DNA from: Lentisphaerota bacterium
GTDB taxonomy: Bacteria; Verrucomicrobiota; Lentisphaeria; Victivallales; Victivallaceae
Length of the DNA: 32,242 nucleotides
Direction: 5' to 3'
Assembly: GCA_015061695.1 (NCBI GenBank)
Contig: SUWA01000025.1
Location: 1-32,242, forward strand
Shown here: positions 16,881 through 29,814 of the stretch, piece after piece
Layout: each line of letters starts with the position of its first letter
How positions within the stretch are numbered: position 1 is the stretch's first letter
Program-made: the position numbers and the translations under genes
Notes under the pieces: model-generated
Database searches by the model: none
Seen by the model: the letters and a program-made list of their open reading frames with translations, nothing else
Told to the model about the DNA's origin: nothing

Positions 16881-17846
16881 TTGAACAGAGCAGAAATTTT
16901 TTCACGGCAGAGCGGCATGACGCTGGCCGGAGCCGCGGCGCAAACCACCAAACCGCTGGTATTGGCGATCGGCGTTTTTGACGGCGTACATCTGGGCCAC
17001 CGCAAACTGCTGGATACAGCTTCGGCATTGAGTGCAGAACTCAATGCTGTGCCGGTGGCGCTGACTTTTGATCCGCATCCGCGCTCGGTACTGCATCCGG
17101 CAGCGCCGGTGGTGCTGTTGACCGATCTGGCCGAACGGGTCAGATTGCTGAAAAAATATGGCGCCGAACTGGTGGCTTCGGTGGATTTTACGGCGGATTT
17201 TGCGGCCACTGCCCCGGAGGAATTTCTGGATATGCTTTTTGAAAATATTCCGCAGCTGGCCGGCGTGGTCGTCGGGTCGCAATGGCGTTTCGGAGCCGGC
17301 GGGAGCGGCAATGTACAGCTTTTGGAGCAATATGCCGCGCAGCACAATTTTGTGTTGAAAGCGGTGCCGGAACTGGAACTGGATGGCGCAGTCGTTTCGG
17401 CCAGCAGTATCCGGAACCTGATCGCCGGCGGCAGACTGCAGGCGGCCAATCATCTGCTGGGGCGCAGTTATGCGTTGACCGGCACGGTCGCCAACGGCTT
17501 CGGCATTGCCGGCAGCAATCTGAACTGCCCCACGGCCAACATCGTGCCGACTGCGGGGGTGCTGCCGCCGGATGGAGTTTACGCCGGAATCGTCGAAGTC
17601 GCGCTGGAATGTTACCCGGCGGCAGTGAATATCGGACTGGCGCCGACCTATCACCGCAGCAACAGCCAGCGCCGGATCGAAGCTCATCTGCTGGATTTTT
17701 CCGGCAATCTGTACGGCAAACAGGTGCGCCTGACGCTGGGTTGTTATCTGCGCAGTGAACAATGTTTTGCCAGCGAAAACGCTTTGCGCGAACAAATCGC
17801 CATGGATGTAAAAAATATCCGCTCCTGGGCGGAAAATCTGATATGA
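16881..17846 (+). CDS. ribF: Bifunctional riboflavin kinase / FAD synthetase
   Basis: RibF phosphorylates riboflavin to FMN and adenylates FMN to FAD. The N-terminal FAD synthetase domain shows AIGVFDGVHLGH (29-40) and FDPHPRS. SASSIRNLIAGG is the KMSK-like region. The C-terminal kinase domain has GTVANGFGIAGSNLNCPTANI (with the PTAN motif) and DGVYAG. The length of 321 residues is typical. The longest frame begins with TTG at 16881, with TTGGAG 11 nt upstream; an ATG at 16917 is the alternative. A gene for an HTH protein follows after 10 bp, then ruvC after 2 bp. Confidence 0.94.
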   Translation: MNRAEIFSRQSGMTLAGAAAQTTKPLVLAIGVFDGVHLGHRKLLDTASALSAELNAVPVALTFDPHPRSVLHPAAPVVLLTDLAERVRLLKKYGAELVASVDFTADFAATAPEEFLDMLFENIPQLAGVVVGSQWRFGAGGSGNVQLLEQYAAQHNFVLKAVPELELDGAVVSASSIRNLIAGGRLQAANHLLGRSYALTGTVANGFGIAGSNLNCPTANIVPTAGVLPPDGVYAGIVEVALECYPAAVNIGLAPTYHRSNSQRRIEAHLLDFSGNLYGKQVRLTLGCYLRSEQCFASENALREQIAMDVKNIRSWAENLI

Positions 17847-17856
17847 AAGGACTTCT

Positions 17857-19050
17857 ATGAGTCAGGAAACCTACAGTGTTGCCGCGCTGGCCGCCGCCGT
17901 CGGGGTGCCGCGCACAACTATCAACGACTGGTTGAGCCGCTATGCGGATTATATCGACTGTACCGCCGTGGGCAAACGCAAAGTCTATTCGGCCGCCAGT
18001 TTGAGTGTGCTTAAAGAGATCGCTGTAATGCGCGACAGCGGCAGATCCAGTGCCGAAATCGAAACTCTGCTGGCACAGAAACACGGCGTCCGCCCCGAAG
18101 TTACTCCACCGCCGGAAGTGAAAAGTGATGCAGATAAAGCCCCCGGAACAGCTCCGGATGCCGAAAAAGCCTCCACCGCACTGGCCATAGCCGATCACGG
18201 CGAAAACTCCCAGCTGCCGGCCCTGAAAAATATTGAGCAAAGTGCCATGGAACTGGCCGGTTTTATTGCCGAAATGCAGAAAACCCACGTTCAAACCGTC
18301 AAGCGAGCCAAACATCTGGCTCTGACCATGTTGAGCGGAATAGTCGTACTGCTGATCGCCGTGGTGCTGATCTATGCGGCGATGCGCAGCGAAGCCGCCG
18401 GGCGCCGCAGCGATGCCGAACAGGCCCGGCAGGATCTGCTCAAACTTTCCGGTGAACTGCAGAACGAAGCCGCCGGGCGCCGCAGTGATGCAGAACAGGC
18501 CCGGCAGGATCTGCTCAAACTTTCCGGCGAACTGCAGAACGAAGCCGCCGGACGCCGCAGTGATGCCGAAAAATCCCAACAGGCCGCCCGGGCCATGCAA
18601 ACCCGACTCGATACGCTGAACAGCGAACTGAAAAACATGCAGCAGCTCCGCGAAAATGAGCGCAAGCAGGCCGAACTCAAACGCGAACAACTCCAAAAAG
18701 AACTCGAGCAGCTGAAAAAAGAGTACGCCCAACAATCCGAACAGCTGAAAAAAGAGTTGGAACAAGTCCGTCTGGAACGCGAAAAAGCCCGGCAGGGCGA
18801 AGCTCTGGCGCGTCAGGAATCCGAATCGCAGAAAAAACGGGCGGATCAGCAGCAGAAAATCATTAATGAAAATGCCGAAAAATCCCGCCGTCAGCTGGAA
18901 TCAATGCAGCAGAACTTTGACCGCAAACTTCAGGCTATAGATAAACAGCTTGAAGCGCTCAAACTTGCTCCGGCCCCCGCCCCGGCCGCGCCCGAACAGG
19001 ACAAAACCGATCAGAGCAAAACCGTTCCGGCACCGGAGGCCGGCAAATAA
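17857..19050 (+). CDS. Membrane-tethered MerR-like HTH protein with long coiled coil
   Basis: The 397-residue protein joins three parts. Residues 5-70 look like a MerR-type winged helix (YSVAALAAAVGVPRTTINDW, then a KRKVYSAASLSVLKEI segment). A Pro/Ala-rich linker leads to one transmembrane span (about 152-176). Beyond it lies a charged coiled coil of about 180 residues rich in Q, E, K and R, then an Ala/Pro tail. It starts with a 25-residue unit repeated twice plus ten residues of a third (179-238). By topology the HTH is cytoplasmic and the coiled coil periplasmic. The ribosome site AAAGGAC is good. I do not recognise a named family; a signal-sensing regulator or a DNA-envelope anchor are both possible. 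Confidence 0.75.
   Translation: MSQETYSVAALAAAVGVPRTTINDWLSRYADYIDCTAVGKRKVYSAASLSVLKEIAVMRDSGRSSAEIETLLAQKHGVRPEVTPPPEVKSDADKAPGTAPDAEKASTALAIADHGENSQLPALKNIEQSAMELAGFIAEMQKTHVQTVKRAKHLALTMLSGIVVLLIAVVLIYAAMRSEAAGRRSDAEQARQDLLKLSGELQNEAAGRRSDAEQARQDLLKLSGELQNEAAGRRSDAEKSQQAARAMQTRLDTLNSELKNMQQLRENERKQAELKREQLQKELEQLKKEYAQQSEQLKKELEQVRLEREKARQGEALARQESESQKKRADQQQKIINENAEKSRRQLESMQQNFDRKLQAIDKQLEALKLAPAPAPAAPEQDKTDQSKTVPAPEAGK
18391..18570 (+). repeat. 75 bp in-frame tandem repeat (2.4 copies)
   Basis: Units at 18391-18465 and 18466-18540 encode the same 25 residues (starting EAAGRRSDAEQARQ) and differ by three silent changes only. The third unit matches for ten codons from 18541 before diverging. 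The period extends the coiled coil just outside the predicted membrane span. Confidence 0.92.
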
Positions 19051-19692: not shown

Positions 19693-20736
19693 ATGCCAGA
19701 TTCAAAAACTGCTGTTCTGATCGATGCCTATTCGCAAATATTCCGCGTTTTTTATGCGATCAGCCATTTGAGCCGCCGCGACGGCTTCCCCACCAACGCG
19801 CTTTTCGGCTTTGCCCGGTTGCTTTTGCAGTTGGAAAAAGAGTACGCTCCGACTGCCGGAGCCATGTTTTTCGATTGCGGCAAACCGGAGTTCCGGCTGG
19901 AACTGGCCCCGGATTACAAATCCAACCGCCCCCCCATGCCGGAAGAATTGAAACAGCAAATGCCGCTTTTACGCGAACTGGCCGGATTGTTCGGCTGGAA
20001 CATCTGCCAGTGCAGCAACTACGAAGCTGACGATCTGATCGGAGCCGCCGTCAAAAGTGCGCCGGAAAATCACTTTGCGATCATCAGTTCCGATAAAGAC
20101 CTCTCGCAGCTGATCGACGAAAAAACCTGTATGCTCATACCTTCGCGCAACGGAGGTTTTGAAGTCCGCAATATTGAAGCAACGCTGGCTAAATTTGCAG
20201 TCGCACCTTGTCAGATCATCGACTATCTGGCGCTGCTCGGCGACAACTCCGATGCGATCGAAGGTGTAGCGGGTATCGGCCCCAAAACGGCGGCCGGGAT
20301 CCTGCAAAGCGCCGGTTCGCTGGAAAAATTCTTTGCCGATCCCGCGCTGGTCAGCAATCTCAAGACCCGCGATAAACTCCTGAACAGTCAGGAACTTATC
20401 AAACGCAACCGGAAGTTGATCGCGCTGCGGACCCTCTGGCCGGAAAATGAACTCGGCCCGCTGGCCGGCAATCTGGTCAAACGGCCGCCTGACTGGGCAA
20501 AAATCGCCGGCTTTGCCCGGGAGTATGAACTCAAAAGCGTCCTTAAAGAGCTGCCAAAAGAATTTGCTGCGGATGTTCCCCGAACACCTGCAAGTGCAGC
20601 GCCACCGCCTGCTGCTGCCGCCCAAGATGCCGATGACCTTTTCAGCTGGGGCGAGCAGCAGGAACATACCGGTCAAGCCGACCGGGAGAGCGCCGGAAAA
20701 GATTCCCCGCGTCCGACCCAGGGCGTACTCTTTTAA
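19693..20736 (+). CDS. Stand-alone 5'-3' exonuclease (flap endonuclease family) with C-terminal clamp motif
   Basis: The 347-residue protein matches the 5'-nuclease domain of DNA polymerase I but carries no polymerase. Metal-binding and catalytic segments are LIDAYS (D11), FDCGKPEFR, YKSNRPPMPEEL (helical arch), YEADDLIG, ISSDKDLSQL and LLGDNSDAIEGVAGIGPKTA, the last with the helix-3-turn-helix. About 60 low-complexity residues follow and end in Q343-G-V-L-F347 as the last five residues. This fits the QxxLF sliding-clamp motif. It would remove RNA primers and flaps at Okazaki junctions or repair gaps. Its ribosome site is GGAG, 13 nt upstream. Confidence 0.92.
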   Translation: MPDSKTAVLIDAYSQIFRVFYAISHLSRRDGFPTNALFGFARLLLQLEKEYAPTAGAMFFDCGKPEFRLELAPDYKSNRPPMPEELKQQMPLLRELAGLFGWNICQCSNYEADDLIGAAVKSAPENHFAIISSDKDLSQLIDEKTCMLIPSRNGGFEVRNIEATLAKFAVAPCQIIDYLALLGDNSDAIEGVAGIGPKTAAGILQSAGSLEKFFADPALVSNLKTRDKLLNSQELIKRNRKLIALRTLWPENELGPLAGNLVKRPPDWAKIAGFAREYELKSVLKELPKEFAADVPRTPASAAPPPAAAAQDADDLFSWGEQQEHTGQADRESAGKDSPRPTQGVLF

Positions 20737-29751: not shown

Positions 29752-29814
29752 CCGTCATTTCATCCGTCATTTTGCCGTCACATTGTATTTTTTGAGCTTA
29801 AAACGCATCCGTCA
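29752..29814 (-). promoter_or_regulatory. Four TGACGG direct repeats around the esterase promoter
   Basis: On the minus strand TGACGG occurs at 29814-29809, 29780-29775, 29769-29764 and 29757-29752. The spacings of 34, 11 and 12 bp are close to whole helical turns. A TACAAT -10 box lies at 29787-29782 with no good -35. The first repeat falls at the -35 position and the other three lie at and just after the likely start point. This looks like a multi-site regulator target. Confidence 0.45.

Follow-up and report, generated by a model that had tools for sequence, protein, structure and literature searches.

Why should a DNA-binding head be joined to a membrane span in one protein? This question is raised by the product of the open reading frame at 17857-19050 of the forward strand, here called gene X, in a contig of a Victivallaceae MAG (genome G000); the window is this whole stretch of 32,242 nucleotides. 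Victivallales are poorly studied gut and sediment bacteria, and in the literature searched there was no account of such a protein, either for Victivallales or for Lentisphaerae. A first-pass annotation had described X as a MerR-like head, one membrane span and a long, charged coiled coil with repeats, encoded in a cofactor/DNA-recombination operon, and had suggested that it could contact DNA from the inner membrane. The features of the window that are discussed here are collected in Table 1.

Table 1. Coordinates of gene X, its parts, its partner gene and the candidate binding array in the window.
Feature	Position	Strand	Details
Gene X (MerR-type wHTH, linker, one membrane span, long helix)	17857..19050	+	ATG start, 397 aa
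MerR-type winged HTH of X	17872..18078	+	residues 6-74
Recognition helix of X			R19-T20-T21-I22-N23-D24-W25
Wing of X			G39-K40-R41-K42-V43-Y44
Disordered acidic/Pro-Ala linker of X	18097..18231	+	residues 81-125, AlphaFold2 pLDDT < 50
Single membrane span of X	18316..18384	+	residues 154-176
Long charged helix/predicted coiled coil of X, putatively periplasmic	18385..18957	+	residues 177-367
Tandem repeat in X	18391..18570	+	75 bp (25 aa), ~2.4 copies, not in relatives
ribF, conserved partner gene 5' of X	16881..17846	+	
Candidate X-binding array	29752..29814	-	TGACGG words 29752, 29764, 29775, 29809; partner word TTGAGCTTA

X belongs to a family that is conserved in Victivallales (Lentisphaerota) at one copy per genome. 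One homologue is present in 32 of 41 relatives, so the reading frame is not a chance one, and the gene is conserved in relatives as the annotation had expected. Among the relatives of the window genome are Victivallis vadensis DSM 14823, a cultured species that carries X (L100), and two complete genomes, zth2 and WC36. In a sample of 289 genomes of the phylum, strong matches (E < 1e-49) are confined to the order Victivallales, and the other matches are weak and do not fall in the HTH. Every full-length relative examined has the same layout: an HTH, a linker, one span and a C-terminal part of 113-238 residues.

In the window X lies directly 3' of ribF (PF06574, 1.5e-40; PF01687, 7e-34), and ruvC (PF02075, 3e-37) starts 2 bp after it. 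The proposed operon stands in its first half: ribF is directly 5' of X in 71 of 76 loci, while ruvC follows X in the window genus only. A functional tie between X and ruvC was rejected on this ground. In general the genes 3' of X vary (ruvC, acpS and others), and coaD is divergent at many loci. In the genus g16 (G057, G064, G067 and others) X is missing in most sampled members, and close relatives keep X away from ribF. Further along the window, 19693-20736 encodes a stand-alone 5'-3' exonuclease that has the N-terminal domains of PolA only; its C-terminal TQGVLF resembles a sliding-clamp-binding motif.

The head of X belongs to the MerR superfamily of DNA-binding domains, as the first reading had it. 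It matches MerR_1 (PF13411) with 31.2 bits, or 35.0 for the domain alone, against a gathering cutoff of 21.6, and the same family is matched by 27 of the 27 relatives tested. Among the (nearly) invariant residues are R19, T21, N23, D24 and W25 in the HTH and G39, R41 and Y44 in the wing. The fold matches of the head in the PDB are RacA, CarH and GlnR, the top Foldseek match being the RacA-DNA structure 5i44 (prob 1.00, E 2.3e-3). RacA is also the commonest NCBIfam match among the relatives (19 of 27, best 2.2e-6, under the model cutoff); X itself scores 16.1 bits on the RacA family model against a cutoff of 165, that is, the likeness is at the level of the domain only. The classical MerR layout, a dimerisation helix straight after the wHTH and then an effector-binding domain, is not seen in X, where the wHTH is followed by the disordered linker, a helix and the membrane span. 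In the AlphaFold2 model no effector-binding domain was found, and the part beyond the membrane is helix only. A Pfam scan of X gave no match to DUF536, a ParB domain or HTH_25.

In the AlphaFold2 model the wHTH (1-76) is confident, the linker is disordered, and residues 128-367 form a single continuous helix (pLDDT ~95) that includes the span. With a Kyte-Doolittle value of 2.98 the span is clear, and there is one in every full-length relative. After it the helix has a hydrophobic periodicity of 3.55. The described span and the long, charged (predicted) coiled coil with repeats are both recovered. The in-frame tandem duplication of 75 bp (18391-18570) extends the helix in the window species only. 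The orientation in the membrane is less clear-cut: the positive-inside bias is modest across the family (4.4 K/R on the N side vs 3.2 on the C side, with N-in favoured in 20 of 30), and the window protein has none (4 vs 4). An N-in topology, which we consider the likely one, would put the coiled coil in the periplasm and not over the DNA.

Which DNA could such a head contact? Across species the word TGACGG/CCGTCA recurs at ribF promoters, often as pairs 11 bp apart that stand next to a -35-like hexamer. Of 68 ribF-X promoters, 18 have a near-perfect pair, compared with 1% of windows drawn at random from these loci. Of the 24 near-pairs in a ~12-kb profile of the surroundings of X, the 500 bp at the ribF promoter hold 19. 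No pair was seen at any of 24 ribF promoters that have no X next to them, be it missing or elsewhere. Further, in two g16 genomes in which X has moved from ribF (L132/G019 and L133/G203) the array is directly 5' of X; at L114/G124, L119 and L137, where X is also away from ribF, there is no array at the X promoter. In a set of 15 promoter pairs not chosen by motif, the spacing of same-strand words is 11 bp in nine. The window genus has arrays in the genome and none at the ribF promoter, and the array of the window lies just 5' of an acetyl-xylan-esterase-like gene. TGACGG within gene X was considered as a general rule and rejected, as the word is locally dense in G027 but not in general. We take TGACGG at exact 11-bp steps as a new candidate DNA target of X, which the head would be expected to bind.

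Many TGACGG arrays have a second word, AAGCTCA/TGAGCTT, next to them; it accompanies 18 of 81 sites, where ~1 would be expected by a rough count. It is seen at window 29752-29814 and at L216, L219, L222, L224, L225, L228 and L233, and may be a part of the array element or a site for another protein.

Genome-wide, the exact pattern TGACGG-N5-TGACGG occurs 1-15 times per genome in most genomes with X, and the reversed pattern 0-3 times. The median is 4 pairs in the 58 genomes with X and 0 in eight genomes without X from genera other than g16; related genomes are not independent in these counts, and G010 was left out of the set without X because ribF is also missing there. Within g16 the genomes with X have 7, 4 and 6 pairs, against a mean of 1.5 in 17 genomes without it (p = 0.005). 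Genomes that lack X are thus at background level or close to it. Some arrays consist of three or four TGACGG words in phase. The exact array is absent in 11 of the 58 genomes with X, one of which, G025, has TAACGG pairs. Array sites are both intergenic and genic (the gyrA tail, a glycosyltransferase, thyX). At L335 (G022:C1, ~1.80 Mb) three TGACGG words in 11-bp phase lie inside a thyX-like coding sequence, and a site also adjoins a thyX-like gene in G004 (L227). That the candidate target co-occurs with the gene, and stands at its promoter in many species, supports the proposed contact of X with DNA from the inner membrane.

Residues 23 and 24 of X differ from N-D in 6 of 42 proteins. None of these 6 genomes has two or more pairs, compared with 34 of 36 with N-D, in a comparison that covers 42 genomes of about four lineages and was picked after seeing the data. 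Given this post hoc choice, the few lineages and the degenerate pair that G023, one of the six, retains at its ribF promoter, the covariation of these residues with the arrays is suggestive only. Where residues 23/24 are altered, a search of the ribF promoters for other 11-bp repeats in place of the array gave nothing convincing.

The arrays are not evenly spread over the chromosome. In the complete genome G014, 8 of 9 independent array loci lie in 300 kb out of 3.2 Mb, and in contig 1 of G022 (3.88 Mb) a window of 10% takes in 8 of 10 (p <= 3e-5 by simulation for each genome), so that most sites of these two genomes are in 5-10% of the chromosome. A looser pattern, TRACGG, adds six loci, five of them inside the two clusters. 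The switch from minus to plus GC skew normally marks oriC; by skew sampling, G014 has it at ~2.06 Mb and G022 at ~1.68 Mb, each inside its array cluster. Further, recF is inside the cluster of G014 (2.104 Mb), and a recF-like gene is found among the array sites of G003:C81. The position of dnaA was rejected as an origin marker: it is at 0.54 Mb in G014, the opposite skew switch, and at ~3.05 Mb in G022, mid-arm and far from the switch, while G025 has dnaA near the minus-to-plus switch. With dnaA elsewhere in G014 and G022, the choice between origin and terminus rests on skew polarity and recF, which would place the array cluster at the predicted replication origin. X itself is inside the cluster in G014 and 1.1 Mb away from it in G022. 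Although so distant, X of G022 has a near-pair at its ribF-X promoter, and the promoter array is thus not simply a result of origin proximity. Other genomes add little: G025 was set aside as a third clustering test (3 loci only, p = 0.51), as were G027:C9 and G003:C81, where a skew switch near the sites is weak.

We also looked for the system that usually marks this part of a chromosome. In six genomes with X there is no parS with 0-1 mismatches, and the five places with 2 mismatches are at the control level. A ParB that passes the cutoff is present in 4 of 45 genomes. Of these, one lies outside the order and one lacks X; the other two carry X, and one of them is the window genome, whose ParB-family protein (L344, G000:C58:25006-25443; 72.4 bits) may be of mobile-element origin. 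Most relatives have no such protein. ParABS is mostly undetected in Victivallales, and its absence appears to be the rule, not universal. The candidate arrays would resemble parS in being dedicated sites clustered near a (predicted) oriC; unlike ParB-parS, X comes without a ParB fold, a parS palindrome or an identified ParA-type partner.

Several known proteins share parts of this plan. RacA of Bacillus subtilis has a MerR-type wHTH and a coiled coil and tethers DNA to the membrane, as proposed here for X, and has its ram sites at high density around the origin (PMC6593407). It is, however, a soluble sporulation protein that reaches the membrane via DivIVA and whose symmetric dimers bind GC-rich DNA (PMC5859096), whereas X has its own span and a different candidate site. 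RocS of Streptococcus pneumoniae unites a MerR-like wHTH and a coiled coil with a means of attachment to the membrane in a single chain, and demonstrates that such a combination can run chromosome segregation without ParA (PMC11500499, PMC13042908). RocS has DUF536 and attaches by an amphipathic C-terminal helix that follows a cytoplasmic coiled coil; in X the span is internal and precedes the coiled coil, and the C-terminus is of low complexity. In BldC of Streptomyces a MerR-like head binds direct repeats head to tail and, like X, has a Trp in the recognition helix and a basic wing (PMC5859096). BldC is a soluble transcription factor of 68 aa with 9-bp repeats, compared with the candidate 11-bp direct repeats of X. 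In an alignment by eye, Asp24 of X takes the place of Arg30, with which BldC reads bases. RodZ, CadC and ToxR have the order predicted for X, of cytoplasmic HTH, one span and extracytoplasmic part, with heads of other HTH families; the HTH_25 head of RodZ is not found in X. A replacement of RodZ by X was rejected: whether or not they carry X, all of 36 genomes have MreB and 35 have a separate HTH_25 protein.

The RacA-like fold, the precedents of BldC and RocS, the origin-dense RacA sites and the rarity of ParABS together favour origin tethering, with self-regulation in some species. We think that X probably ties the origin region to the inner membrane, as a counterpart of RacA and RocS, and doubles as the regulator of its own operon in some species. 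X would then be a single-pass inner-membrane protein whose cytoplasmic wHTH binds TGACGG words 11 bp apart; as this step is about one helical turn, neighbouring heads would sit on the same face of the DNA. The span and the presumably periplasmic coiled coil would keep X at the envelope and, as most sites are around the predicted origin, it is this region that X would hold at the membrane. An integral membrane protein would thus do the job of RacA and RocS where ParB/parS is mostly undetected, and the ribF-X promoter would be a further target of X in many species.

The main rival to this tether is a membrane-bound one-component transcription factor, with the layout of ToxR or CadC and a MerR head, that controls the ribF-X operon and a regulon of modest size; the clustering at the origin would then only reflect the location of the target genes. 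Many sites are indeed in promoters. At ribF-X the arrays often adjoin or overlap a -35-like hexamer, and CCGTCA falls between -35 and -10, in the spacer where MerR regulators bind, and some other sites are just 5' of genes (window 29752-29814; cdsA in G003/G004). But many sites fall within coding sequences or where two genes converge, a regulon would not be expected to gather in 5-10% of the chromosome, and no effector-binding domain was found, the extracytoplasmic part being purely helical. We regard this explanation as unlikely, with a real chance nevertheless.

It is also conceivable that X has another role in the membrane and that the arrays belong to a different regulator. Response regulators of the OmpR/PhoB type also favour 11-bp direct repeats, so the spacing would suit their operators, and arrays are missing in some genomes with X. 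Against this stand the array that moves with X from ribF in two g16 genomes and the empty ribF promoters where X is lacking. The genomes with changed residues 23/24, which are among those without arrays, point the same way within the limits of that post hoc comparison of about four lineages (0/6 vs 34/36). We judge such a separate regulator improbable. About as improbable, in our view, is that the clustered sites mark the terminus, in the manner of matS, and that X organises the ter domain. The position of dnaA almost exactly opposite the cluster of the complete G014 would fit it, but in G022 dnaA is not opposite the cluster, in G025 it is near the minus-to-plus switch, and both the skew polarity of G014 and G022 and recF within the G014 cluster speak for an origin.

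If X is an origin tether, the idea can be carried one step further. X as an integral-membrane centromere-binding protein and the origin-proximal TGACGG arrays might form a one-protein chromosome-partition system doing the work of ParABS in Victivallales, a proposal that we make tentatively and hold to be somewhat doubtful. To our knowledge, how the origin is positioned in bacteria without ParABS is an open question across most phyla. If the tether is real, X would be a built-in anchor between DNA and membrane in a lineage with a Gram-negative envelope, and anchoring of the RacA/RocS type by MerR-like heads would reach beyond Firmicutes, to an integral membrane protein. The TGACGG sites are defined well enough for tests in a cultured species.
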